Shown in pieces: positions 4,318-18,435 of a DNA stretch of 64,000 nucleotides. Positions within the stretch are counted from its first letter, which is position 1, and each line of letters opens with the position of its first letter. The translations under genes and the position numbers were made by a program. Below the pieces are notes generated by a model that did not search any database, was not told where the DNA came from, and worked only from the letters and a program-made list of their open reading frames with translations. The stretch comes from Hymenobacter volaticus (lineage in GTDB: Bacteria > Bacteroidota > Bacteroidia > Cytophagales > Hymenobacteraceae), in NCBI RefSeq assembly GCF_022921055.1, contig NZ_CP095061.1, forward strand, positions 2,829,501 through 2,893,500. The letters run 5' to 3'.

Positions 4318-5456
4318 TTACTGCACGTCAATCACCGACATAGTGTGCGGCGCGTCAGATTTCTTATTGATGAAGTTTTTTTCGGGCTTATCGAAGTCGG
4401 AGACATAGAGGCGGTTGCCTTTGAGCAGAACTTCAGCTGGCTGGTCGAGGAGACCGTTCGTGCCGTCGGTGTCGCCATTTTGGGCTAGGGTCGTGACGGT
4501 GTTGTCTTTCAGGTTGACGACTTCAATGGCGTTTTCGCGGGAGTTGCAGAGGTAGGCTTTGTCGGTTTTGCGGTCGATGATGAGGCCGTCGACGCAAGTG
4601 ATTTTCTTACCCTTGAGCGTCAGAGCCTCTTTTTTGGCGAGGGTACCGTCGGGCTTCATCGTCATCTTATAGAAGGTACCGTCGCCGAACGAGCCGGTGT
4701 AGAAATTGCCTTTGCTGTCGTAATCGAGGCCGTCGGCCCCGTTATCGACGCCAGTTTCGTTGACTTGCGTAGTGAAGGTGGTTAGTACGTGCGGGTCCAT
4801 GGTTTTGGGCTTGAGGTGCACGGGACCTTGGTTAAGTTCGGCTAGCGTGAAGGCTAGCACGGCACTGCCTTTGTCGTTGTCGGGCATGTCCCACTGGCTG
4901 TCAGTCACGTAAATTTTGTTGCCTTTCCAGACCACGGCATTAGCCAGCGCAAAGTTGTCGACCACTGTTTCTACGGCGCCGGGCTTGCCGTTTTGAACCC
5001 GCACCCGCATCAGTCGGGATTTAAAATCCTTGCTATTTTCGTATTGGTTTTCGGCGTAGTAGAGGTTGCCGTCGGGGCCGAACGCTAAGTCCATGGGGGC
5101 AGCTTTTTTGGTGGTAGGCTCGACGGGTAGGTTGCTGAGGTAGGGCTTGAGGCTGGTGTCAGTCATCTCCACAAGTACCGCCGGCTTCGAGTTGTCGGCC
5201 AGGTTGGGTACCGACAGGATGATGCTGCCATTGGGTGCCAGCGCTAAGCCGTCGGGGTGTTGTGGGCGTCGTCGAGGGTATGCAGCAGCTTGGGACTGCC
5301 AATTTTGGCGATGGTGTCGGTAGCGGCGGGCGCGGTGGTAGAGTCGCCAGGCATGGCGGGCAATTCGGGCGTAGTTGGCGTTTCGGTGTTAGTGTTGGAC
5401 TGGCAGCCGGCCAGTAGCGCGCCACTGAGAAGCAGCGGAAGAAAGTTGGTTTTCAT
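4318..5456 (-). pseudogene. SMP-30/gluconolactonase-like beta-propeller lipoprotein, frameshifted
   Basis: The gene begins at 5456 with a lipoprotein signal (LLLSGALLAGCQS). The first frame stops near 5244 after LLHTLDDAHNTP; the rest continues in another frame as DGLALAPNGSIILSVPNL and runs to 4318. One base missing from the G run at 5254-5257 (C run on the coding strand) explains the break: restoring it gives HNTPDGLALAPNG. The rest shows repeated propeller blades such as MDLAFGPDGNLYYAEN and GADGLDYDSKGNFYTGSFG, typical of the SGL/SMP-30 family of calcium-dependent lactonase-like propellers. The intact product would be about 379 residues, exported and lipid-anchored. The substrate is unknown; no sugar-pathway genes are adjacent. 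Confidence 0.8.
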
Positions 5457-5675
5457 GGTATGCTTAAGGCAGAGGATCAGCGTAGAACGATTTAACTGCT
5501 TAGCTTAACGAGCGGCCGATGAGCTTGATAGTGGATGCCAAAATTTTACTTCTCACAACCCGTTCGTACCCGTTGAAGTATCACCTTGTAGCGGCAAGAA
5601 TTTCCAACCATTTCCGTAACTAGCCGACCGAATCCCATTTTCCAACCACACCAGGACTCACCCGTCCCCTGCAGT

Positions 5676-6191
5676 ATGGCTCAAATCAGCGAAAACAAAG
5701 TCGTTACGATCACCTACGATCTGAGCGTGACCGACGACAATCAGCAAAAAGTGCTCGTAGAATCAGCCGAAGCGGATGCGCCCATGGTGTTCCTGTTCGG
5801 CCAGAGCGGCCTACCCGAGGAATTTGAGCGTCAGCTCGACGGCAAGCAAGCCGGCGACTCGTTTGCCTTCTCCCTTACCCCGGAGCAAGCATATGGCGAG
5901 TACGACGACCAAGCCGTAGTCGACATCCCGAAAAACGTATTCGAAATCGATGGTCAAGTAGACCAAGAAATGCTGCAAGTTGGCAATTTCCTCCCCATGG
6001 CCGACAACCAAGGCCACCACATGCAAGGCAAAGTGGTAGAAATTGGCCCCGACAGCGTAAAAATGGATTTTAACCACCCGCTCGCCGGTATGGTGATGCA
6101 CTTCGACGGCAAAGTAGCCGAGGTGCGCGAAGCCACGCAAGAGGAGCTGGATCATGGCCACGTCCACGGCGAGGGTGGCCACGCCCACTAG
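5676..6191 (+). CDS. FKBP-type peptidyl-prolyl cis-trans isomerase, SlyD-like
   Basis: A 171-residue protein. It starts with the short FKBP strand (VVTITYDLSVTDDNQQ), has the catalytic-core segment FGQSGLPEEFERQLDGKQAGD, and contains the inserted-in-flap chaperone domain typical of SlyD (EQAYGEYDDQAVVDIPKNVF onward). FNHPLAGMVMHFDGKV is the conserved return strand. The C-terminus is His-rich (HGHVHGEGGHAH) and could bind nickel or other metals, as in SlyD. No signal peptide, so cytoplasmic folding help is expected. It is a single-gene unit ending at a strong terminator. Confidence 0.93.
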   Translation: MAQISENKVVTITYDLSVTDDNQQKVLVESAEADAPMVFLFGQSGLPEEFERQLDGKQAGDSFAFSLTPEQAYGEYDDQAVVDIPKNVFEIDGQVDQEMLQVGNFLPMADNQGHHMQGKVVEIGPDSVKMDFNHPLAGMVMHFDGKVAEVREATQEELDHGHVHGEGGHAH

Positions 6192-6213
6192 GCTGTTACT
6201 TATCTGCTGATAC

Positions 6214-6243
6214 AAAAAACGGGGCCGCTTGGCCCCGTTTTTT
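6214..6243. terminator. Bidirectional rho-independent terminator
   Basis: Stem AAAAAACGGGGCC with loop gctt and matching GGCCCCGTTTTTT. It sits between the convergent FKBP and ACP-phosphodiesterase genes and has a U-tract in either direction. Confidence 0.93.
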
Positions 6244-6247
6244 GTTG

Positions 6248-6880
6248 CTAAAGCCCGCTTTCCGGCTCTCTACTGCTATTTTCAGCTTTTACCGCTGCCC
6301 GCAGTTCCGGCCAAAACTCCCGAAAATCCGCTTCGTAGGCGGGCAATTCTGCCAAGAACGCGGCGGCGCCTGTAGCCAGCACGGCCCCAGATGGTGCGCG
6401 GCGGCTCAAGCCTAGCAAGGCCCGCTCTAGGCCTTGGGGAAGCGCGTAGCCGCTGAGCCAATCGTCGCGGCGCATGTAGTAGAGCGTTTGCTGTAGGCGC
6501 TCCGGCAACTCTTGGCGGCGGGCGTGGAGCAGGGCGTAATGCCGTTGGGCGAAGGCTGCCAGCGGCTCGGTAGGGTCGTAGTGATAATGCGAGAAGTCGC
6601 GGGCCAGTAGGTGGTCGAAACCGACATCAGAAACGACGCCCGCCCATTTGCCAAGGCCTGATTCGCGCAAGCGGGCGGTGGTGCGGCGCACCAGCGGGTG
6701 CGCATCGGTGAACGAGTCGATGAAGCGGTGCAGGCGGATGCCGCGCTGCACGGCCGGCGGATACGCTTCCAGCGCAGCACGACCCCGTACGGCTTCGGCG
6801 GCAAAATTGCCGATTACCACGTCAGGATAATTTGGCGCGGCGGGCGTATCGGAGAGAACTAGGTGGGCCAGGAAGTTCAT
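6248..6880 (-). CDS. Acyl carrier protein phosphodiesterase family (DUF479/AcpH-like)
   Basis: A 210-residue protein starting MNFLAHLVLS at 6880, the standard family N-terminus; the frame is open further upstream but that part does not resemble the family. The AcpH family removes 4'-phosphopantetheine from acyl carrier protein and belongs to the HD-like metal-dependent hydrolases. Visible conserved parts are VIGNFAAEAVRG, GIRLHRFIDSFTDAHP with its histidines and aspartates, and SDVGFDHLLARDFSHY. Cytoplasmic. The gene converges on the FKBP gene and shares its terminator. Activity on ACP is known for the E. coli member; here it is inferred. Confidence 0.88.
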   Translation of the reverse strand: MNFLAHLVLSDTPAAPNYPDVVIGNFAAEAVRGRAALEAYPPAVQRGIRLHRFIDSFTDAHPLVRRTTARLRESGLGKWAGVVSDVGFDHLLARDFSHYHYDPTEPLAAFAQRHYALLHARRQELPERLQQTLYYMRRDDWLSGYALPQGLERALLGLSRRAPSGAVLATGAAAFLAELPAYEADFREFWPELRAAVKAENSSREPESGL

Positions 6881-7033
6881 GAAGTAGTTGTGGACTGCTG
6901 CTAGTTGAAGGTAAACTACTTGTTTACACCTACTGCTTAACAAGCAACCATCAACAATCAGCTGCCAAAATAACCTTCGCGGAGCAGAGCCGTATCCCTA
7001 AGCTCCAACCTACACTACCAAAACTCTGAAATT

Positions 7034-7540
7034 ATGGCCGAGCAAGTTGCCGTTAGTCACGATGTTACTGAGCTGATCAAGCGCATCAAGGACATCAAGA
7101 TTGCCATGCTGACTACTGCCGAGCAAGATGGCACCCTTCATAGCCGTCCGATGTACACCCAAGAGCCGCAAAACGACGGCACGCTGTGGTTCTACACCGA
7201 AAAGGACTCCGCTAAGATTTTCGAAGTAAAAAAAGATCAGCACGTAAGCCTGAACTATTCCAAGCCAGAGGATAACCTTTACGTGGCCGTTTCCGGCACA
7301 GCAACGGTTACCACCAACTCCGAGCTTATCAAGAAATACTGGTCGGAAGGTCTGCGGGCTTGGTTCCCGAATGGTCCAGAGGACCCGAATATCGCCTTGT
7401 TGCGTATTGACATTGTGCGGGGCGAGTATTGGGACCAGCCGAGCAACGTACTTGTACGCGCTTTCGGCTATGCAAAAGCCGTAATAACCGGCGAGCGGTA
7501 CCAGCCCACCGGCGACGAACACACCCAAGTGAAACCCTAA
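7034..7540 (+). CDS. Pyridoxamine 5'-phosphate oxidase-fold general stress protein
   Basis: A 168-residue protein of the split beta-barrel FMN-binding family (general stress protein 26 type). Landmarks are IKIAMLTTAEQDGTLHSRPM at the flavin-binding edge, GTLWFYTEKDSAKIFEVKKD, VSLNYSKPEDNLYVAVSGTA, and WFPNGPEDPNIALLRIDI near the end. These proteins bind FMN or F420-like flavins and are often stress-induced; the substrate is unknown. It is transcribed alone and followed by a hairpin terminator at 7704. Confidence 0.9.
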   Translation: MAEQVAVSHDVTELIKRIKDIKIAMLTTAEQDGTLHSRPMYTQEPQNDGTLWFYTEKDSAKIFEVKKDQHVSLNYSKPEDNLYVAVSGTATVTTNSELIKKYWSEGLRAWFPNGPEDPNIALLRIDIVRGEYWDQPSNVLVRAFGYAKAVITGERYQPTGDEHTQVKP

Positions 7541-7703
7541 GTAGTTCTGCCCTCCAACGTGAAGCTCTGCTTTCCTGCCTAGCCCTTCGATTTGTGAACT
7601 ATAGTCGTGCGGCGGGCAACGAAGTAGAGCTTTGTGCTACCAACCCAAACCCACCAACAACCCAACAACAACCCAACCCTAACTGTCTTTCTGAGCTATC
7701 TAT

Positions 7704-7731
7704 GAAGGGGCGGAAGCAATTCCGCCCCTTC
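7704..7731 (+). terminator. Rho-independent terminator
   Basis: Stem GAAGGGGCGGA, loop agcaat, stem TCCGCCCCTTC, then CTTTGTTGTTTT. It lies 163 bases after the stress-protein stop codon. Confidence 0.8.
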
Positions 7732-7848
7732 TTTGTTGTTTTGGAGCATGCGTGATGTGGGGTACACGTTGCTGTTTGTGCCCTACTTCTGTTTGCTCCG
7801 CGCTAGCTGATAAAAGCGAAAGCGCGCTTCACATTAAAGCTGCTGCCC

Positions 7849-8568
7849 TTGCTTACCACTCTTACCTTATTCACGCTTCAGCCTAACCAGAAACGGTGGG
7901 GATTGGCTCAAATGGGCACTTCGCCGCCGCAGTTGCAAAAGGTATCCGGCCTGCGCTTTTTCAAGCTGGCGGGTAGCGGCAATGCTAATGGCTTCGGGCT
8001 TTGGCCGAATTTGCACCGCTACGGCTTCATGGCCGTTTGGGACTCGGCAGCAGCGGCAGCAGCCTTTTTCCAAGAGCATGCTTTATGGCAGGAATACCGT
8101 CAGCGCAGCGTTGAAACCTGGACGCTGGATTTGGCACCGCTGAAGTCGCACGGCCTTTGGGATGGGACGAATCCATTTGACTACGAAACGCCAGACTTAG
8201 CTCCCGCCGACAATGCCCCCGTGGCCGTACTAACCCGCGCTTCTATCCGGTGGCAGAAAACCTGGCGCTTCTGGCAATACGTAGCCCCCACCAGCGCCGC
8301 CGTAGCCCACGCCGACGGTGTGCGGGCCGCCATTGGCCTCGGCGAGCTTCCCATCATCCGCCAAGCCACGTTCAGCGTGTGGGAATCAGCCCAAAAGATG
8401 CAGCAATACGCCTACCGCGACGCTACCCACCGCGAAGTTATCAAGCTCACGCGCCAAGAAAAGTGGTACGGCGAGGAGCTATTTGCCCGCTTCCAGGTGC
8501 TGCGCAGCGAGGGCACGTTAGATGGCAAGAACCCGCTGGATATGCCAGAAGTAGCGCCTCCAGCCTGA
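7849..8568 (+). CDS. Spheroidene monooxygenase (CrtA)-like protein
   Basis: A 239-residue protein beginning at TTG (LLTTLTLFTLQPNQKRWGLAQ). The pattern LRFFKLAGSGNANGFGLWPN, then RYGFMAVWDSAAAAAAFF, and the second half FSVWESAQKMQQYAYRDATH followed by EEWYGEEL-like sequence (KWYGEELFARF) matches CrtA-type proteins, which carry two ferredoxin-like dimeric alpha/beta-barrel units. Bacteroidota members are annotated after the Rhodobacter carotenoid 2-ketolase, but no carotenoid gene is next to it, so the substrate is open. The TTG start is a guess; no ATG fits better. Confidence 0.75.
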   Translation: MLTTLTLFTLQPNQKRWGLAQMGTSPPQLQKVSGLRFFKLAGSGNANGFGLWPNLHRYGFMAVWDSAAAAAAFFQEHALWQEYRQRSVETWTLDLAPLKSHGLWDGTNPFDYETPDLAPADNAPVAVLTRASIRWQKTWRFWQYVAPTSAAVAHADGVRAAIGLGELPIIRQATFSVWESAQKMQQYAYRDATHREVIKLTRQEKWYGEELFARFQVLRSEGTLDGKNPLDMPEVAPPA

Positions 8569-8640
8569 GTACATTAGACTCTTTGCTGATAACGAGACAC
8601 TTGCCTTACTACAATGCCCCTTGGAGCTAGCAAGGCTGAA

Positions 8641-8939
8641 AAGCTAGTTCCCCACCTCAGATGAGGAGGGGTTAGGGGTGGTTGACCAGTCGTGGAACGA
8701 CACCACCAAAACGTCATGCTGAGCGCAGCCGAAGCATCTTGCGTGCTGACGCTGCCAATACCAATAGCCCGTCATGCTGAGCGCAGTCGAAGCATCTCGC
8801 TAGGGTGGTGAACCCTGACGCGTGTGCAACAAGTCGAGCGAGATGCTTCGACAAGCTCAGCATGACAATACCTCTATAACATCAGCAACGACAATCAACT
8901 GCCTCTAGCCCCTCCTTATCTATGGAGGGGAACTAGCTT
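8641..8939. repeat. Outer inverted repeat enclosing a palindromic element
   Basis: AAGCTAGTTCCCC at 8641-8653 is matched in reverse by GGGGAACTAGCTT at 8927-8939. Inside each arm is a further related block: CCTCAGATGAGGAGGGGTTAGG on the left (8654 onward) and CTAGCCCCTCCTTATCTATGGA on the right. The two arms of about 40 bases enclose one and a half copies of the dispersed 95-bp element. No coding sequence is seen from 8569 to 9183. Confidence 0.75.
8713..8866. repeat. Dispersed palindromic element, site 1 (half copy plus full copy)
   Basis: A full copy at 8771-8866 has left arm GTCATGCTGAGC..GAAGCATCTCGCT and right arm AGCGAGATGCTTCGAC..GCTCAGCATGAC around a 35-base unpaired middle. A lone left arm, GTCATGCTGAGCGCAGCC then GAAGCATCTTGCGTGCTGAC, precedes it at 8713-8748. 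The same element recurs at 13189, 16464, 25518, 31525 and 39548. Confidence 0.9.
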
Positions 8940-9183: not shown

Positions 9184-10173
9184 ATGAACACGCTACTACC
9201 TACCGATCAACCGACCAGCTTGCCGAAGTGGCAGCAGCCCGAAAAAGTGGCGGGGTGGGTCTTTCTGGCTGGCCTTGTGGGGGCCGGCGTGTATAGTTGG
9301 GGCGTCATCGTGCCCTACCTCGTCGACATTGTGTTCGACACCGTGAAGCTCGGCATTGGGCTTGGGGTGCTGTTTGCCTTGTTTCTGCTGGTCACCAACC
9401 AGCGCGTGAAGGCGGGGCTGTGGTACGCCGGGCAGCGCATCTTCCGCACGGCGGCGGGCATCTTCGTCAATACCGACCCCATCGGTATCATGGAAGACTA
9501 CATCCGCAACACCGAAAAGGAAGCCAAAAACATGGCCGCCGAAGTGGGCCACATCGAGGGTGCCCACGAGCTGGTGAAGCGCAAGCTGACCGACAACCAA
9601 AACCAGATGCAGGACTACCTGAACCTGGCTGCCTCCGCTACCCGCCAAGGCGAAAAAGATGCGGCCGACAGCTACGCCTCCCGCGCCGCCCAGCTCCAGG
9701 ACTACAACCAGCGCCTCACGCCCATGCTCACTACCACGGCCAACGTGAGCCTGGTGATGCGCCAAATCCTGAAAGCCGCCCTGCGCCAAATTGACAACAG
9801 CAAGTTCAAAGTAGGCCTGCTGAAAGACGAATACGCCCTGGTAAAACGCACCAGCTCGGGCATGCGGGCCGCCATGAATATCCTGCGCGGCGACCCCGAC
9901 AAGAAGTACTTCTTCGACCTCGCTACCGACCGGGTGGCCCAGGACATGGCCGCGCAGCTCGGCCAGATCAAGCAGGCCATGCGCTACTCGCAGGAGTTCG
10001 TCAAGGAAATGGACATCCAGAACGGCGTGATGAGCGAGAAAGGCCAGCGCCTGCTCGGCATGTACCAGAAAGGTGACTTCAACGCCCTAATCAACGAGAA
10101 ACCCCAACCGCCGCTTACCACCACGCAAACTCGTCAAGCCACCAACGATGCCTATTCTAGCCTGCTTGATTAG
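9184..10173 (+). CDS. Membrane-tethered PspA-like coiled-coil protein
   Basis: A 329-residue protein starting MNTLLPTDQP (an upstream TTG in frame is less likely). Residues ~22-45 and ~50-72 form two hydrophobic segments (VAGWVFLAGLVGAGVYSWGV and a second rich in L, F and G). After these, INTEKEAK-like sequence DPIGIMEDYIRNTEKEAKNM opens a long helical region with the heptad and EDP..M..YIR pattern seen in PspA/Vipp1 proteins, followed by ARQGEKDAADSYASRAAQL-type repeats. PspA itself has no membrane hairpin, so this is a tethered relative or an analogue. It is the first gene of a locus with a binding protein fused to OmpA, a permease and an ATPase. A role in membrane or envelope stress is inferred. 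Confidence 0.65.
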   Translation: MNTLLPTDQPTSLPKWQQPEKVAGWVFLAGLVGAGVYSWGVIVPYLVDIVFDTVKLGIGLGVLFALFLLVTNQRVKAGLWYAGQRIFRTAAGIFVNTDPIGIMEDYIRNTEKEAKNMAAEVGHIEGAHELVKRKLTDNQNQMQDYLNLAASATRQGEKDAADSYASRAAQLQDYNQRLTPMLTTTANVSLVMRQILKAALRQIDNSKFKVGLLKDEYALVKRTSSGMRAAMNILRGDPDKKYFFDLATDRVAQDMAAQLGQIKQAMRYSQEFVKEMDIQNGVMSEKGQRLLGMYQKGDFNALINEKPQPPLTTTQTRQATNDAYSSLLD

Positions 10174-10362
10174 TTTTTTGCTGGTGCGGCTGGTGCTCGT
10201 CGGCCTGACTTTCTACCTCCCCGCGGCGCCCCTTAGCCAGGTGCCTCACGCGCCAACCTCGGCGGCGCACGCCCACTTCACTTTCCCTGCATCAGCTTCG
10301 AAAGCTGCTCCCCTAGCGGCATGGAAACCCGCTCTTCCCCAATTCTAACTCCTTCAAAAATC

Positions 10363-12143
10363 ATGACTACTCGCGGTAAAATTGTAATTGGCCTTCTCCT
10401 AGTAATTGGCCTGTATTTTGGCATCAATAAAGTGGTTTCCAGCGGGGCCGTGTTCAAGAAAGCCGACACGCAGTCGGTTTTGCTCAACTCCATTGAGCTG
10501 CCTACCACCGCCAGCAACGGCAACCGAGCCAACATTGCGGTGCCACTGGCCGACCTGCCCGGCACCACGCCCGCCGAAAAGGGCACGCCCATCACGTGGG
10601 AAGTAATGGCCTGGAACTCGCAAATGGCTGGTATGCTGGCCAACGGCGGCCCCCGCACCACCCAGGGCTCGGCCATGGCTGCCAACGGCGTTGACCTTCA
10701 GATTATGCGCCAAGACGACGTAACCAAAATGCAGGCCGACCTGGTGAAAAATGCCGCCGACCTCGACGCCAACCCCAGCACGCCCGGCCTGATTGTGAGC
10801 ATCATGGGCGACGGACTGCCCGGCTTCTCGGCGGTGCAGGAGCAGCTTAAGAAAGTGGGCACTCAGCTTCAAATCATCCCCTACTCAGTAGGCAAATCGT
10901 TCGGCGAAGACAAGCTGATGGGCCCGAAAGAGTGGCTCGACAACCCCAAGCTGGCCGTGGGCAAAACCATTGCCTGCTACCTGCGCGACGGTGACCAGAA
11001 CATTGCCCTGAAGTGGTGCGCCGACAACGGCCTTAAAGTCAACCCCGACGAAACCACCTACGACCCCGAAGCCGTGAACTTCCTATCGGCCTCTGATTTC
11101 CTGGTGGCCGCCGAAAAGTACATCGTTGGCAAGCCCGAGCAGCGCACCAAAGTGGTAAACGGCAAAAACACCGGCGTGAAAATCGACGTGGTAGCCGACG
11201 CAGTAGCCACCTGGACGCCCGGCGACGTGAACATCGCCAAGCAGAAAGGTGGCCTGGTGAGCATCGTGTCCACCAAAGACTACTCCAACCAGATGCCCAA
11301 CATCATGGTGACCACCAAGCGCTGGTACGACGCCCACCAGAAGGAAGTGGCAGGCCTGATGACCGCCTTCGCCGTGGCTGGCGACCAAGTGAAGTCGCAC
11401 CCCGAGGCGCTGAAGCGGGCTGCTGACATTTCGGCCGACGTGTACGCCGACAAAGATAAAAACGGCGCCTACTGGCTGAAGTACTACAAGGGCGTGAGCG
11501 AAGCCGACCGTACTGGCGAAGTGGTGGAACTCGGGGGCAGCAAGGCCTTCAACTTCGCCGACAACCTGGCCTTGTTCGGCCTCGAAGAAGGCGGCACCAA
11601 CATCTACGCGTCCGTCTACAAAACCTTCGGCGACGTACAAAGCAAGCTCTACCCCAAGGAGTTGCCCAGCTACGTACCCCTCGACCAGATGCTGGACCTC
11701 AGCTTGCTAAAGAACATGCAGGCCCAGTACAAAGGCAAAGCCGTAGCCCCCGCCGACCAACAAAAGTTTGCCGCCGACGATGAAATCCGCCGCAACGTGA
11801 GCAAGCGGGCTTGGAACATCGAGTTCAACACCGGCCAAAGTTCCTTCACGCCCGCCGCCGAGCGTGAACTCAGCCAGCTCTTTGACGACTTGATAGTAGC
11901 CGGCAACCTGAAAGTAGCCGTGCACGGCCACACCGACAACGTCGGCGACCCGCAAAAAAACCAGCAGCTCTCCGAAGACCGCGCCATGGCCGTGCGCGAG
12001 TGGCTGCAACAGAAAAGCACTAGCGCCTTCCCCGAAGGCCGCGTGCAAGTCTACGCCCACGGCGCCACCGAACCTGTCGAAAGCAATGCCACCCCACCGG
12101 CAAAGCCAAGAACCGCCGGGTAGAAGTGGTATTGGGCAACTAA
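10363..12143 (+). pseudogene. Periplasmic substrate-binding protein fused to OmpA domain, frameshifted near its end
   Basis: The start at 10363 (MTTRGKIVIG) gives one N-terminal membrane anchor (residues ~5-24). Residues ~60-440 form a type 2 periplasmic binding domain of the phosphate/NitT-TauT kind (WEVMAWNSQMAG, LIVSIMGDGLPGFSAVQEQL, KTIACYLRDGDQNIALKWC). The last ~110 residues are OmpA-like: IEFNTGQSSFTPAAERELS and VHGHTDNVGDPQKN, which bind peptidoglycan. The open frame stops at 12121, but one C added at 12092-12095 gives TPTGKAKNRRVEVVLGN and a stop at 12141-12143, the normal OmpA ending. So only the last ~18 residues are affected. It would be a binding protein fixed to both membrane and wall, serving the ABC importer downstream. 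Confidence 0.8.
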
Positions 12144-12146
12144 GTG

Positions 12147-12312
12147 GACCTCACCCCCCGGCCCCCTCTGCTCAGGGAGAGGGGGAGCAACGGCGGTCTT
12201 GACTCTACATGAAAACTTGTCTTATCTGATTCGCATAAACCATTCACATCTAAAAAGCCTTCGTCAGGCTCCCCCTCTCCCTGAGGAGAGGGGGCCGGGG
12301 GTGAGGTTGACC
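12147..12312. repeat. Large inverted repeat between binding-protein and permease genes
   Basis: GGACCTCACCCCCCGGCCCC and CTCAGGGAGAGGGGGAGC (12147-12187) are matched in reverse by GCTCCCCCTCTCCCTGAGGA and GGGGCCGGGGGTGAGGTTGACC-like sequence ending at 12312. The arms are about 42 bases and the spacer about 80. The right arm ends directly before the permease start codon at 12314, so the transcript could fold over the permease start. Confidence 0.85.
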
Positions 12313-12313
12313 T

Positions 12314-13090
12314 ATGAAAAATCTATTCATCCCGAATGCCCAGCCGCGCCAGCCGGTTTTCCTGACCATGGTGGCGTGTCAAGCGCTGGTGCTGTTGGTG
12401 CTGTGGCTGCTGTATCCGCTCAAGCTGTTCCCAACGCTCGGCGAGGTGCTGACAGCGTTTCAGGATCTGGTGCGCACGCAAGGGCTGATTCAGGAACTGT
12501 GGGCCAGCTTGGCAACGGCCATTCAGGCAGTGGGCATAGCGACGGTGCTGGCCCTGTTCATCTCCTACCTCACGGCGCTGCCGTTCTTTCGGCCCCTGGC
12601 CTACGCCGCCACCAAGCTACGCTACCTTACCCTCACGGGCCTCACGTTTTTCATGGCCCTGATGCTTAGCTCCGGCCACCAAGTGAAGCTGTCGGTGCTG
12701 GTGTTCGGGGCCACGGTGTACTTTGTAACGGGTATGACCAGCGTGATTCTGACCACCACGCAGGAGGAAATGGACCACGCCCGCACCCTCGGCATGAGCG
12801 AGTGGCGCAGCTTTTTCGAGGTGATTGTGCTCGGCAAGCTCGATGACATGCTGGAGGTGGTCCGCCAAAACTTCGCCATCATCTGGACCATGATTACTCT
12901 GGTCGAGACGCTCTACCAGTCGGAAGGCGGTATCGGGCTCCTGCTCTACAAGCAAAACCGCTACCTGCACCTGGCCGGCGTCGTGTCCATTCAGCTAGTT
13001 ATTCTGGCCGTGGGCGCGTTGCAAGACTACCTGTTCGTCCTCCTGCGCCGCGTGTTTTTCCCCTACTCCGAACTGACTACGGCGAGGTAG
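12314..13090 (+). CDS. ABC transporter permease, NitT/TauT type
   Basis: A 258-residue inner-membrane protein with about six hydrophobic segments (for example ACQALVLLVLWLLYP and TLTGLTFFMALMLS). The cytoplasmic coupling (EAA) loop is EEMDHARTLGMSEWRSFFEV followed by IVLGKLDDML, typical of the BPD_transp_1 family of nitrate/sulfonate/bicarbonate importers, though the usual proline after the loop is replaced. It starts immediately after the right arm of a large inverted repeat. With the upstream OmpA-fused binding protein and the downstream ATPase it forms one importer. The substrate cannot be read from sequence. Confidence 0.88.
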   Translation: MKNLFIPNAQPRQPVFLTMVACQALVLLVLWLLYPLKLFPTLGEVLTAFQDLVRTQGLIQELWASLATAIQAVGIATVLALFISYLTALPFFRPLAYAATKLRYLTLTGLTFFMALMLSSGHQVKLSVLVFGATVYFVTGMTSVILTTTQEEMDHARTLGMSEWRSFFEVIVLGKLDDMLEVVRQNFAIIWTMITLVETLYQSEGGIGLLLYKQNRYLHLAGVVSIQLVILAVGALQDYLFVLLRRVFFPYSELTTAR

Positions 13091-13188
13091 TTGAATTCAA
13101 AAGCCCGTCCTGCTGAGCATGTGGCACATTAAGATAGGGAGGCAACGAGGCTGAATCTCCAGCGTGCTCACGTTGCCAAACTATATCC

Positions 13189-13280
13189 GTCATGCTGAGC
13201 TTGCCGAAGCATCTCGCTCGACTCGTTGAGTTAGCATGGCAACGTCAGCACGCGAGATGCTTCGGCAAGCTCAGCATGAC
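13189..13280. repeat. Dispersed palindromic element, site 2
   Basis: Perfect 29-base arms: GTCATGCTGAGCTTGCCGAA followed by GCATCTCGC on the left, and the exact reverse complement ending CAGCATGAC on the right. The middle, containing GTTGAGTTAGCATGGCAACG, resembles that of the copies at 31525 and 39548. A decayed half copy lies just upstream (13101-13160). It separates the permease from its ATPase gene. Confidence 0.92.
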
Positions 13281-13347
13281 AGGTGCGAGTTGTTCAACGG
13301 CTCCAGTATTAATCACTCACCAGTTCACAACTCACCAAATCACCTCC

Positions 13348-14175
13348 GTGACTCCTCTACCCTACAACTACAAAGAACCGGTACTTACGCTGCAAGGCGT
13401 ATCGATGACGTTCAACGGGGAAGTTGTTTTGCGCGACATCAATGCACAGGTCCTCGACGTGACTCGACCAGGCATGAACCAGGGGCAGGTCGTGGGGTTC
13501 TACGGCCGCTCCGGCATCGGCAAATCGGTGCTGTGCCGCATCATGGCCGGGCTGCTGGCCCCGAGTAGCGGCACGGTGCACGTGGGCGTCAATCAGTTGC
13601 CGGTACGGCCGGGCATGGTGGGCCTCGTGCAGCAGCGCTACCCCCTCTTCGACCACCGTACCCTCCACGACAACCTACTAGTGGCCGCCCTCCGCAAACA
13701 CACACCCGATGAAGCGCAACGCCAAGTAACTTCCTACCTCGACCGGTTTTGCCTCACGCCGCACCGCAAGAAATACCCGGCGCACCTCTCGGGCGGCCAA
13801 CGCCAGCGCGCCGCCATTGCCCAACAACTGCTCTGCTCCGAGCACCTCATCCTGCTCGACGAGCCCTTTTCCGGCCTCGATGTGGCCATGATCGACGAGG
13901 TCAAGAAAATTATCCTCGAAGTCACGACCATGGACGAGCTCAACACCGTCGTCATCGTCTCCCACGACATTGCCACCACCACCGCCCTCGCCGACCGGTT
14001 GTGGCTGCTCGGCTACGAGCGTGACGCCACCGGCCAGCTCATCCCCGGCGCCACCATCACCCAACAGCACCAATACAACCTCGCCGAAATGGGTTTAGCC
14101 TGGCACAAAAACGTGGAAGCCGAACCCGAATTCGCGCAGTTCGTCGAGCACATCAAAGATGAAATTCGCTTGTAG
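13348..14175 (+). CDS. ABC transporter ATP-binding protein
   Basis: A 275-residue ATPase. Walker A is GRSGIGKS (residues 53-60), the signature is LSGGQRQR (147-154), Walker B LILLDEP, and the switch histidine is in VIVSHD. I chose the GTG at 13348 (VTPLPYNYKEPVLTLQGVSM) because the longer in-frame extension to 13192 translates through the dispersed palindrome and is not family-like. The C-terminal ~60 residues extend past the core ATPase (YNLAEMGLAWHKNVEAEPEF), possibly for coupling to the partner. It energises the importer encoded by the two upstream genes. Confidence 0.9.
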   Translation: MTPLPYNYKEPVLTLQGVSMTFNGEVVLRDINAQVLDVTRPGMNQGQVVGFYGRSGIGKSVLCRIMAGLLAPSSGTVHVGVNQLPVRPGMVGLVQQRYPLFDHRTLHDNLLVAALRKHTPDEAQRQVTSYLDRFCLTPHRKKYPAHLSGGQRQRAAIAQQLLCSEHLILLDEPFSGLDVAMIDEVKKIILEVTTMDELNTVVIVSHDIATTTALADRLWLLGYERDATGQLIPGATITQQHQYNLAEMGLAWHKNVEAEPEFAQFVEHIKDEIRL

Positions 14176-14426: not shown

Positions 14427-14840
14427 ATGAAAGTCTATAAATCTAAAATTGGCGTTGAACTGGTAGCGTTTCTCTCGCTCGTGCTCGGTGGAGTTGCCTT
14501 GTTGCTAGCCTACAAAGGTCATTGGCTAGGCCTTCTCTTTGTGCTACCAGAGGCCGCATTCATAATGTATCTATTTATGAATACGTACTACACGGTGGAT
14601 GGGAAGACCTTAAAAATCAAAGCTGGTATACTATTCAACAGCTCAGTTGATATTGACACAATTAGGAAAATAGCAGAAACGAATAACCTGCTCAGTTCTC
14701 CGGCCGCTTCCCTTGATAGGCTAGAAATTGAATACGGCCGGTTTGACAGCGTGCTTATCTCACCTAAAGACAAGCAGGGCTTCATAAGCCATATGCTCGC
14801 CATTAACCCCAACATTGAGGTTCAATACAAAGCGAAATAA
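14427..14840 (+). CDS. PH-domain-like membrane protein
   Basis: A 137-residue protein; MKVYKSKIGVELVAFLSLVL at 14427 is the preferred start (a GTG 30 bases upstream is possible). Two hydrophobic segments near the N-terminus (residues ~9-27 and ~33-50) are followed by a beta-rich domain: YYTVDGKTLKIKAGILFNSS, then a helix-strand end SVLISPKDKQGFISHMLAIN. This is the pattern of bacterial PH-like domain membrane proteins (YdbT/YokE or DUF1200 type). Function unknown; it stands alone. Confidence 0.7.
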   Translation: MKVYKSKIGVELVAFLSLVLGGVALLLAYKGHWLGLLFVLPEAAFIMYLFMNTYYTVDGKTLKIKAGILFNSSVDIDTIRKIAETNNLLSSPAASLDRLEIEYGRFDSVLISPKDKQGFISHMLAINPNIEVQYKAK

Positions 14841-15053: not shown

Positions 15054-16415
15054 ATGCCCTCTGGAACACTTCTACTCATTGACGACGAACCGCGCTTGCG
15101 CCAACTCTTGGCGCGGGTCTTGGAACTGGAAGGCTACACGATTCTGCAAGCCCCCGACGCCCGGCGCGGCCTAGAACTGCTGGAACAACACGCCGCCGAT
15201 GTGTTGGTGGTAGTATCCGATGTGAAGCTGCCTGATGCCAACGGCGTAGAGTTGCTGCCACGCCTCAAGGCCAAAGCGCCCGACATGGAAGTGATTTTGC
15301 TCACCGCCTTTGGCACCATTCCCGATGGCGTGAAAGCCATGAAGCAGGGCGCCTTCGACTACCTCACCAAAGGCGACTTCGAGCAGCAATTGGTGGTGGT
15401 AGTGGACCGGGCCGCCGAAAAAGCGCGCCTGCGCCGCCGGGTGGCCGAGTTGGAGCGCAAGATGGGCCAGCGGCACAGCTTCAGCTCCATGATTGGCTCG
15501 TCGGGGGCGCTGCGGCGGGCCCAGACCATGGGCGAGCAGGTGGCCGTAACGGATAGCACCGTGCTGCTGGAAGGGCCCACAGGTTCGGGCAAGGAACTGT
15601 TTGCGCAAGCCATTCACGAGGCGAGTCCGCGCAAGTCGAAGGCGTTTGTGGCGGTGAATTGCAGCGCGTTTCCGCGGGAACTGTTGGAATCGGAGCTATT
15701 TGGGTACAAGAAGGGCGCGTTTACGGGGGCGCTGGCCGATAAGAAAGGCTTGCTGGAAGAAGCCAACGGCGGCACCTTGTTTCTCGATGAAATCGGAGAA
15801 TTGGAGCTGAACGTGCAAGCCAAGTTCCTCAGGGTGCTGGAGTTGCAGCAATTCACCAAGCTCGGCGACACCAAACCCACCAACGTGAACGTGCGCCTGG
15901 TAGCCGCCACCAACCGCAACCTCAAGCAGGAAGCCGCCGAAGGCCGTTTCCGCCCCGATTTATACTACCGGCTCTCGGTGTTCACCATCAACGTGCCGCC
16001 GCTAAAAGACCGGCCCACCGACGTACCTGCCCTGGCCGAGTACTTTCTACAATACTTCGCCGCCAAGCTCTGCAAGCGCCTGCCCAGCCTTGATGTGGAA
16101 TGCCTGCGCCTGCTCCAACAATACCCCTGGCCCGGCAATGTGCGCGAGCTGAAAAACGTGCTGGAACGCGCTGCCATCCTCGCCCCCGCCGACCAGCCCC
16201 TAGCCGCCGCCTACCTCCCCGACGAGTTCCACGCCCCGCCCGCCCCGCTCAGCCTTACCGATGCCAACCCCGACGATAATAGCCTCCGCACCGTGGAAGC
16301 CCGCCACATTCAACTGCTGCTCCACCGCACCCAAGGCAACAAAACCGAAGCCGCCCGCCAGCTCGGTATCGGCCTGACTACGCTCTACCGCAAAGTGCAG
16401 GAGTACGGCCTGTAA
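15054..16415 (+). CDS. Sigma-54-dependent response regulator (NtrC/ZraR family)
   Basis: A 453-residue regulator starting MPSGTLLLIDDEPRLRQLLA at 15054. Order: receiver domain (acidic DDEP, phospho-acceptor in VVSDVKLPD, conserved K in YLTKGDFE), AAA+ sigma-54 activator domain (Walker A GPTGSGKE, GAFTGA loop in KKGAFTGALADKKG, Walker B TLFLDEIGEL, arginine finger region RFRPDLYYRL), and a C-terminal Fis-type HTH (TEAARQLGIGLTTLYRKV). It activates sigma-54 promoters when phosphorylated. The sensor kinase at 16654 is its likely partner; a dispersed palindrome separates the two. Confidence 0.95.
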   Translation: MPSGTLLLIDDEPRLRQLLARVLELEGYTILQAPDARRGLELLEQHAADVLVVVSDVKLPDANGVELLPRLKAKAPDMEVILLTAFGTIPDGVKAMKQGAFDYLTKGDFEQQLVVVVDRAAEKARLRRRVAELERKMGQRHSFSSMIGSSGALRRAQTMGEQVAVTDSTVLLEGPTGSGKELFAQAIHEASPRKSKAFVAVNCSAFPRELLESELFGYKKGAFTGALADKKGLLEEANGGTLFLDEIGELELNVQAKFLRVLELQQFTKLGDTKPTNVNVRLVAATNRNLKQEAAEGRFRPDLYYRLSVFTINVPPLKDRPTDVPALAEYFLQYFAAKLCKRLPSLDVECLRLLQQYPWPGNVRELKNVLERAAILAPADQPLAAAYLPDEFHAPPAPLSLTDANPDDNSLRTVEARHIQLLLHRTQGNKTEAARQLGIGLTTLYRKVQEYGL

Positions 16416-16463
16416 CGCCTAGCCAACGCTTAGTTAACGCATAGTCTACCTCTACCCACGTGT

Positions 16464-16559
16464 GTCATGCTGAGCGCAGCCGAAGCATCTCGCTAGTGTG
16501 GTACCCCCTTTTGTCGTCGCAACGACTCGCGCGAGATGCTTCGACAAGCTCAGCATGAC
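16464..16559. repeat. Dispersed palindromic element, site 3
   Basis: Left arm GTCATGCTGAGCGCAGCC then GAAGCATCTCGC; right arm GCGAGATGCTTCGACAAGC then TCAGCATGAC. It lies between the response-regulator gene and its sensor-kinase gene. Confidence 0.92.
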
Positions 16560-16653
16560 GGTCTATCAAGGTTTCTAAGATTTCAAGTAAAATCTCTTAA
16601 CAGACACTCGTTCGGTTGAACGCCAATTTAAAGTTGGTGTTACTTTTCGTTCC

Positions 16654-18435
16654 ATGACCTTAAAAACCAAAATCCGCCTCAGCATCCTGACCATGTTGGT
16701 GTTGCTGCTGGCGTTGGGCGGATACGCATTTCAAACGATTCAGCGGCTGGAAGGCGGCGCGCGTGGGGTACAGCAAGCCAACTTCAACTCGGTGGAATAT
16801 GGCCTTCAGATGCTGCAGGCCGTGGAGCAACTCGAGCAACAGCCCGCAGCTGCCGCGCCACTAGAGCAGTTTCGGCGGGCCCTTACCCGCGAAGCCGCTA
16901 ACATCACCGAACGGGGTGAATTAGAATTAGTGGACACGCTCACCCAACACCTAGCGGATTACCAAACCCTGGTGGATGAGCAGGCCCCGCTGGTAGAACA
17001 GCAACGCAAGCTGCGTCAGCTGCAAGCCGAGATTCACCGCGCCGTTGACCTCAATACTGTTTCCTTTAACGCCAAAACGCAGTCTGCTACCACTAACGCT
17101 GCCCGCGCCCTGCAGATGGTGTTGATCTTCGTTAGCCTAAGCGCAGCCATTGGCTTGGCTCTGATTGTGCGGCTACCGCGAGAAGTGCTGCGCCCCTTGC
17201 GCCGCCTCACCGCCGACGTAGAAGACGTAGCCAGCCCCGGCCCCACCAACTTGGTACCCATTGCCAAAAACGATGAAGTAGGCGCCGTGGCCCTCGCCCT
17301 AAACCGCGCGTTCGGTTACATGCAAGACCAGCGCAGTGCCACCCGCATAGCCCTAGCTACCGAGCGCAACCGCCTGGAAAGCCTGGTCGAGCACCTTGAT
17401 GAAGGCTTGCTGCTATTAGATGAAAGTGGCTGCGTACTACTGGCCAATCCGACGGCCCGGCGCCTGCTCGACCGCCCCGCCGCCGACCTGGTGGGCCGCA
17501 AGGCCGAGGACCTTAGCCGCGAATCAGAATTGCTGCACACGCTATTTCAACCGCTGCTGGAGCCAGTCACTAAATCAGCTGATAGTGGTGCGCAGCCGCC
17601 GCTGCTCACGTTTCGGCAGCAGGGCGAGGACGTGTATTACCGGCTTACAGCCAGCCATATCGTATCGTTCAACAAGGAGCTGCGGCAGACCGAGTTTGCG
17701 GGCCACATTTTATCGTTGCGCAATGTTTCGGAGTTCAAGAAGCTAGATGAAATCAAGTCCAACTTCCTGGCCACCGTATCGCACGAGCTGAAAACGCCAC
17801 TGGCTAGTATCAACCTCAGCCTTATGCTCCTGCAAGACGAGCGCACCGACCCCGAAGAACGCCTGCGCATCGCCGACGGCATCCGGGAGGAAACCACCCG
17901 CCTGTTGGGCATGGTGGGTCAGCTCATCGACGTTTCGCGGCTCGATGCCGGGGCCGGCATCAAGCTCGATGTGCGCTCCGTGGCACTGGCCGACGTGGTG
18001 GAATACGCCGTAGACACCGTGCAGCCGCAACTCCAAGACAAGGAACTGTGCCTGGAAACCAACCTGCCACCCACCCTACCCGCCGCCCGCGCCGACCTCG
18101 AAAAAACCACGTGGGTGCTCATCAACCTGCTCGCCAACGCCATTCGTTACTCGCCCCGCGGTGCCCGCCTGACGGTGCAAGCCACCCAACTACCCGGCCA
18201 CGAACTACAAGTGAGCGTGCAGGACTACGGCCCCGGCATCCCAGCTGAGTACCACGAGCGAATTTTTCAGCGCTTCGCCGAAGTACCTAACCCCGCTGGC
18301 CACAAAGGCGGTTCCGGCCTCGGCCTTAGTATCTCCCGCGAGTTCATCAGCACCCAGGGCGGGCGGCTATGGGTGGAAAGCTCCCCTGGCACCGGCAGCC
18401 GCTTCCTATTCACGCTTCCAGCAGAGAGTAATTGA
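16654..18435 (+). CDS. Membrane sensor histidine kinase, partner of the NtrC-type regulator
   Basis: A 593-residue kinase. Membrane helix 1 is residues ~9-28 (LTMLVLLLALGGYAFQTI), a helical periplasmic sensor follows, and helix 2 is ~152-172 (MVLIFVSLSAAIGLALIV). Then come a HAMP linker (LRPLRRLTADVEDVASPG), a PAS domain (LDEGLLLLDESGCVLLANPT), the dimerisation box with phospho-accepting His377 (ATVSHELKTPLASIN), and the ATPase domain (N box LINLLANAIRYSP, G1 DYGPGIP, G2 KGGSGLGLSIS). It follows the sigma-54 regulator in the same direction and probably phosphorylates it. Signal unknown. Confidence 0.95.
   Translation: MTLKTKIRLSILTMLVLLLALGGYAFQTIQRLEGGARGVQQANFNSVEYGLQMLQAVEQLEQQPAAAAPLEQFRRALTREAANITERGELELVDTLTQHLADYQTLVDEQAPLVEQQRKLRQLQAEIHRAVDLNTVSFNAKTQSATTNAARALQMVLIFVSLSAAIGLALIVRLPREVLRPLRRLTADVEDVASPGPTNLVPIAKNDEVGAVALALNRAFGYMQDQRSATRIALATERNRLESLVEHLDEGLLLLDESGCVLLANPTARRLLDRPAADLVGRKAEDLSRESELLHTLFQPLLEPVTKSADSGAQPPLLTFRQQGEDVYYRLTASHIVSFNKELRQTEFAGHILSLRNVSEFKKLDEIKSNFLATVSHELKTPLASINLSLMLLQDERTDPEERLRIADGIREETTRLLGMVGQLIDVSRLDAGAGIKLDVRSVALADVVEYAVDTVQPQLQDKELCLETNLPPTLPAARADLEKTTWVLINLLANAIRYSPRGARLTVQATQLPGHELQVSVQDYGPGIPAEYHERIFQRFAEVPNPAGHKGGSGLGLSISREFISTQGGRLWVESSPGTGSRFLFTLPAESN

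Follow-up and report, generated by a model that had tools for sequence, protein, structure and literature searches.

A Conserved Gene Module of Hymenobacter That May Form a Wall-Tethered Importer on a PspA-Like Scaffold

Introduction

Operons that combine a gene for a transmembrane-bearing PspA/Snf7 protein with genes for an AAA+ ATPase, an ATP-binding cassette (ABC) ATPase, a permease and a PBPB-OmpA protein were described in 2024 (PMC11237479, section 18), with OGG56892.1 as an example, and its authors propose that they link membrane remodelling to solute transport. The same paper states that how PspA homologues lacking an AAA+ ATPase regulate their assembly is unknown. A locus of similar make-up lies in Hymenobacter volaticus, within a stretch of 64,000 nucleotides (contig NZ_CP095061.1, positions 2,829,501 to 2,893,500, forward strand) that is called the window here and to which all coordinates refer unless stated otherwise. 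Four genes, named psp, pbp, permease and ABC ATPase, occupy its positions 9184-14175. An initial annotation of the window knew of no named system of this form, but section 18 of PMC11237479 already describes such operons, with an AAA+ ATPase.

In this article, the four genes are considered together with a fifth, X, as a conserved module of the order X-psp-pbp(OmpA)-permease-ATPase. The reading that we favour, tentatively and with something short of even confidence, is that the module would encode an importer tethered at the membrane and the wall and placed on a PspA-like scaffold. Its gene content and order, its domains, the intact ATPase motifs, the co-occurrence of X and the anchor shared with another protein can be read directly from the sequences compared below.

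A Conserved Five-Gene Module

The order psp-pbp-permease-ATPase is kept in all 58 fetched Hymenobacter loci that hold the four genes. The search returned 72 Hymenobacter loci, 71 of them full relatives; one (L080) was dropped, having matched in the OmpA part only, and contig ends truncate two others (L069 and L076). Outside the genus, X, psp and pbp occur together in nine of nine intact loci read (L101-L109), eight of which also carry permease and ATPase, the ninth (L104) being truncated by a contig end after pbp and before the permease. In two of the nine (L107 and L109), psp was assigned by likeness to that of L108, without a BLAST match. An additional degraded copy of the pbp-permease-ATPase operon (L110), interrupted by stops in a 75% complete genome, was left out of this count. 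The neighbourhood is thus conserved beyond the Hymenobacteraceae, the family in which the initial annotation had suggested looking, and the four-gene row that it had drawn is borne out: the reading frames are open, the families are matched and the order recurs in relatives.

Gene X encodes a coiled-coil protein of about 225-230 amino acids that matched no Pfam or NCBIfam family. It usually stands just upstream of psp, as in 53 of the 64 Hymenobacter loci in which psp is present with at least 1.2 kb of upstream sequence (five loci without psp, at contig ends, and two with a short upstream region were left out). Among 120 genomes of the genus, a strong X match (E <= 1e-40) was found in 83 of the 84 that bear pbp and in none of the 36 that lack it; the sole exception (G611) is 83% complete. 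Six of the 120 genomes gave only weak matches to X paralogues. In 15 of the 83 genomes, including that of the window, X has no pbp within 6 kb; at least four of these are contig-end cases, and in five (G000, G593, G594, G621 and G635) X and pbp share one contig at a distance of at least 75 kb. The X of the window genome lies at 1303671-1304356 of contig C1, about 1.5 Mb from the locus. Judged by this distribution, X is a member of the gene set even though it is placed elsewhere in the window genome.

The Transporter and Its Putatively Tethered Binding Protein

All four open reading frames run uninterrupted on the + strand. The ABC ATPase (13357-14175, about 272 amino acids, SsuB/NrtD-like) scores 88.4 bits with PF00005 (ABC_tran) against a cut-off of 25, and its Walker A, LSGGQ, Walker B and H-loop motifs are conserved in seven divergent members and in E. 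coli SsuB, so that the catalytic motifs are intact. Its start, near 13357, is placed where the homologues begin; a longer reading frame is open from 13192, the site of an inverted repeat. The long C-terminal tail claimed for this protein turns out to be of ordinary length, with 69 residues past the H-loop histidine and about 64 in E. coli SsuB by alignment count. The permease (12314-13090, + strand, 258 amino acids) is SsuC-like at low score, as judged by PF00528, an SsuC model and alignment with E. coli SsuC. Together, these features support the transporter of NitT/TauT (SsuABC-like) type proposed initially.

The binding protein pbp (10363-12123, + strand, 586 amino acids) consists of a single N-terminal anchor (10363-10452), an SsuA/NMT1-like binding domain and a C-terminal OmpA domain. 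Its start was picked by alignment with relatives, and an ATG at 10321 is equally open. The best NMT1 stretch (PF09084; 11152-11409, E 0.0065, below the cut-off) contains an ATWTPGD segment that is invariant in all eight divergent sequences aligned, in which the pocket region as a whole is strongly conserved. The OmpA-like peptidoglycan-binding domain (11824-12111) reaches 64.5 bits with PF00691 (cut-off 27.2) and has solved relatives of OmpA/Pal type. Because the same fusion recurs in 71 of the 72 Hymenobacter loci returned and in genomes of other families, it is not an artefact of assembly, a concern raised when it was first noticed. Sequence and relatives alike support a binding protein tethered at both ends.

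At its 3' end (12085-12142), the window copy of pbp shifts frame relative to the consensus of 46 aligned sequences, which costs the last 10 or so residues of the OmpA domain; relatives keep intact copies. An assembly error is a plausible cause of this change, since gene X of the same genome is in two frames and the kinase and PP2C genes of another of its loci (L118, discussed below) also look broken.

The gaps of the operon are filled by inverted repeats, found between pbp and permease (12155-12301), between permease and ATPase (13189-13280) and upstream of psp (8641-8939). They measure 34 nucleotides at 97%, 29 nucleotides at 100% and 45 nucleotides at 82%, and we take these long repeats to be repetitive extragenic palindromic (REP)-like elements. 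After the ATPase, a gene for a bacterial PH-domain protein (bPH_4) lies at 14427-14840; at the threshold applied, none of the 71 Hymenobacter loci gave a match to it.

The psp Protein and Its Relation to PspA

The psp gene (9184-10173, + strand) encodes 329 amino acids, with an N-terminal hydrophobic hairpin followed by a long coiled coil of remote PspA/IM30 similarity. Two transmembrane helices are predicted at about residues 24-72 (9253-9399), as read off the sequence and the alignment. The match to PF04012 (E 9.1e-8, 32.4 bits) covers residues 98-214 (9475-9825) and profile positions 23-139 of 220, leaving the first helix of the profile unmatched, and falls under the curated Pfam cut-off of 33.9. 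Copies in two other genomes exceed that cut-off (34.8 bits in G128 and 35.8 in G046), and the matched stretch recurs at the same place in other Hymenobacter genomes. The profile matches 24 of 70 aligned members of the psp family, a number equal to that of the Hymenobacter-type rows in an output that gives no identities for the matched rows. None of ten decoys that preserve the heptads of psp was matched. The PspA-like coiled coil of the initial annotation therefore stands in part: the Pfam near-match and the decoys speak for it, while the score below the cut-off and the more specific comparisons given under the proposed mechanism do not.

The genome also encodes a separate canonical PspA (E 2.1e-37). 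Its gene (4535-8680 of locus L120) adjoins one that, by reading, resembles a flotillin/band-7 protein. Longer PF04012 proteins of the order were considered as a bridge to psp and rejected, being mainly soluble PspA paralogues rather than membrane-anchored ones among the matches listed (18 regions). In many genomes of the Cytophagales, such paralogues, of 290-420 amino acids, adjoin several TerD-like genes in a row (several of loci L191-L208), a further neighbourhood of PspA and Ter genes.

With a multi-helix membrane protein beside a single-pass protein that carries a wall-binding domain, a motor driven by ions, of the MotAB or GldLM kind, comes to mind. The likeness in topology is joined by that of the OmpA part to MotB/ZorB, and some sources label psp as "Gliding motility protein GldL". 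On the other hand, the predicted membrane helix of pbp has no acidic residue, none is invariant in the psp helices of the aligned relatives as compared by eye, and every complete locus has a dedicated ABC ATPase. The stator reading was rejected on the missing membrane acid, and a motor of this kind is very improbable.

An Anchor Shared with a Ppx/GppA-Like Protein

The N-terminal anchor of pbp has a counterpart in relatives of the locus, where a protein resembling Ppx/GppA (PF02541, E 8.7e-7 in L102 and 0.0021 in L013) also bears one N-terminal anchor. Its gene follows the ATPase in three of the 71 Hymenobacter loci (L013, L021 and L027), stands between psp and pbp in L102 and L103, and turned up in 21 when 148 genomes from the order were searched. 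Six further loci contain it in other company: X-psp-Ppx without a transporter in three (L150, L152 and L154), X-Ppx in L149, Ppx without X or psp in L153, and the row vWA-PP2C-kinase-Ppx-X in L151. The window genome has a locus of make-up similar to the last (L118), with vWA, PP2C and kinase genes, a Ppx-like protein and an X paralogue.

A model was built from 26 pbp N-termini, three of them with start sites called too early, and run on 464 hydrophobic N-termini, 383 of which belong to neither pbp nor Ppx. Ten of the 11 Ppx N-termini, with E values between 6.7e-8 and 0.029, outrank every one of these 383, the best of which has an E of 0.1. The remaining Ppx N-terminus, that of the TerY-P-like locus L151, has an E of 0.64. 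Models made from Hymenobacter sequences only and from the others only place Ppx in the first seven and the first nine positions, respectively, while among five column-scrambled models Ppx came first in none and second in two. We read pbp and the Ppx-like protein as bearing one anchor family on two heads, and therefore a common membrane partner probably exists, for which psp would be the obvious candidate. The exchange of heads on one anchor also offers a clean test case of domain exchange.

A broader reading can be drawn from this. In Bacteroidota, X and psp may serve as a constant base at the inner membrane, on which heads are exchanged through the shared anchor, so that the window would show the transporter form of a platform coupling membrane and wall; this is conceivable, though we hold it to be rather doubtful. 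One head would be a peptidoglycan-gripping binding protein that feeds an ABC transporter, and the other a Ppx/GppA protein of actin fold, exported to the periplasm and present in TerY-P loci too, an assignment that we regard with equal reserve.

The same observations bear on an envelope sensor, in which the doubly anchored pbp would read either a ligand or how far the membrane lies from the wall, the ABC parts, psp and X would relay the signal to membrane-stabilising polymers, and uptake would be minor. The double tether and the PspA-like partner are consistent with this, as is the recurrence of the same anchor and of the X-psp base in loci that have a Ppx/GppA-like head but lack the transporter. 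Additionally, an X paralogue and a Ppx-like head occur in loci of TerY-P type, and TerY-P has been hypothesised to be a signalling switch (PMC11090510). However, every complete locus keeps both ATPase and permease, and conservation of the binding pocket is high. We hold a sensor with minor uptake to be unlikely.

The association of X and Ppx-like relatives with TerY-P-like genes also touches on anti-phage defence, as TerY-P-like modules have been reported in defence. Yet PADLOC and PHROGs gave nothing specific for the locus; PADLOC models miss psp, permease and X, yielding only generic ATPase and MotB-type matches to the ATPase and the OmpA part, and the chromosomal setting is conserved in most Hymenobacter loci. 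A defence system is the least credible of the explanations considered. The TerY-P triad itself (vWA, PP2C and kinase) is absent from the fetched Hymenobacter loci, including that of the window.

Distribution and History of the Locus

In samples drawn at three ranks, the binding domain was found in 84 of the 120 Hymenobacter genomes, in 15 of 148 genomes from the order, covering 6 of 79 genera, and in 8 of 395 from the phylum, covering 3 of 170 genera. It is near-general in Hymenobacter and patchy elsewhere, and no plasmid relatives were found.

Two chromosomal settings can be told apart. Type A, with genes for a sigma-54 regulator and a kinase nearby, comprises 46 Hymenobacter loci as well as the window, and type B, between an M61 peptidase gene and metallo-hydrolase/symporter genes, comprises 14; the remaining 11 Hymenobacter loci were assigned to neither. 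The X of the window genome and the lone X of four sister genomes occupy the type-B site, and the four intact lone X genes group with type-B X (support 100/99). Despite its type-A site, the window pbp also groups with type B (100/99). Quick trees place the permease with B and place psp and ATPase with A, with weak nearest support for the last two (0.46 and 0.45). This split between psp and ATPase on one side and pbp, permease and X on the other implies that the parts were not always inherited together. Given the mixed grouping and the position of X at the type-B site, the window locus is, as far as these trees can be read, a mosaic that would have arisen by duplication, exchange and loss, with X retained at the other site.

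Such reshuffling, evidently tolerated, together with the intactness of every transporter part, would also fit an ordinary importer with an odd anchor, from which psp and X are functionally uncoupled, being mere neighbours or organisers of a generic sort. The adjacency of psp spans families, however, and X is retained even where it is unlinked; moreover, where X-psp occurs with no transporter, the same anchor is there on another head. An uncoupled importer is accordingly judged improbable.

In many type-A loci the operon is followed by genes for a sigma-54 response regulator and a PAS kinase (15054-18435 in the window), and in five (L017, L033, L043, L044 and L051) the operon sits between regulator and kinase. 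No sigma-54 (-24/-12) site was found upstream of the operon in the Hymenobacter loci, the best site of the window being equalled in 46% of shuffles. Control by sigma-54, in parallel to PspF, was rejected since no such site stands out despite the adjacent regulator and kinase, and the same lack in loci that so often adjoin these genes counts against the envelope sensor as well.

Proposed Mechanism

From these data we infer the topology, the scaffold, the uptake of a ligand and a role in envelope strain as follows. The module would make an ABC importer of type I, belonging to the SsuABC/NitT-TauT class, in which pbp would not be free: its N-terminus would be anchored in the inner membrane, while its C-terminal OmpA domain would hold peptidoglycan. 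The psp protein, with two membrane helices and a cytoplasmic PspA-like coiled coil, and X, a soluble coiled coil, would assemble at the same site into an inner-face scaffold, with the pbp anchor packed against psp. The tethered domain would capture a small ligand near the permease, and the ATPase would power its uptake. The wall-membrane tether and the scaffold would fix the gap at which the pump sits and may link transport to envelope strain. If this is true, the module is an importer built into a membrane-to-wall tether, offering a handle on the link between transport, wall contact and inner-membrane upkeep.

Several results weigh against this tethered importer. The permease reaches 20.8 bits with PF00528 (E 3.6e-4) and misses the cut-off of 26.4; its match to the SsuC model (E 6e-8) is far short of that model's own cut-off, and the glycine of the EAA loop is replaced in most relatives. 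The binding domain of pbp matches SsuA_fam (E 2.2e-5) and NMT1 weakly, both below cut-off, and its alignment with E. coli SsuA, which is colinear and takes in A-x-W-x-P, is not significant. For psp, a profile specific to the order (29 Cytophagales PspA and E. coli PspA, 30 sequences) gave at most 12.8 bits among 58 Hymenobacter proteins, and one of 580 decoys reached 16.4. Relatives of psp from other genera have no PF04012 match, and neither hhalign profile-profile comparisons with PspA nor sequence searches of the PDB were significant; the kinship of psp with PspA thus appears remote. The co-occurrence of X and pbp within one genus, inflated by shared descent, is strong and not independent evidence, and the quick trees divide the parts of the module, weakly supported as two of the groupings are.

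Comparison with Known Systems

SsuABC and NitT/TauT importers share with the window locus the three-part importer, the motif pattern and colinearity with SsuA, SsuB and SsuC. The locus differs in a binding protein tethered at both ends, in weak profile scores and in extra coiled-coil partners. PspA/IM30/Vipp1 proteins (PF04012) resemble psp through the remote match in the hairpin region and through a helix that begins with DP; in psp, a transmembrane hairpin replaces the first PspA helix, and the score stays below the cut-off. MotAB and GldLM stators likewise combine a single-pass, wall-binding arm with a multi-helix base, whereas the window locus has an ABC ATPase and no conserved acid in the membrane helices. 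TerY-P triad loci (vWA, PP2C and a kinase with a zinc ribbon, according to PMC11090510) are approached by L118 and L151, which carry an X paralogue and a Ppx-like protein; these two have no transporter, pbp or psp, and the window locus has no TerY-P genes.

The core gene set is already in print in PMC11237479, while the constant X and the exchangeable outer head look new. No mention of X, the Ppx-like head or the shared anchor was found in section 18 and the other passages of that paper covered, or in the open literature searched, and none of PBP-OmpA in the passages of PMC9239133 covered. The operons of PMC11237479 share with the window locus a transmembrane-bearing PspA-like gene beside an ABC ATPase, a permease and a PBP-OmpA gene. 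They contain an AAA+ ATPase, in contrast to the window operon and the Hymenobacter operons: none was found in the 71 Hymenobacter loci at E 1e-5, and the best AAA+ match in the window genome (E 3e-10) covers only part of the domain and is FtsH-like by reading. In three related loci (L107-L109), an AAA+ ATPase of SpoVK/CbbX type lies near the operon. Because it has no AAA+ ATPase, the window operon is filed as a variant, not a member, of the kind described in PMC11237479. The Hymenobacter form thereby provides a PspA-like case free of an AAA+ ATPase, with natural partners in X, the pbp anchor and the ABC ATPase.

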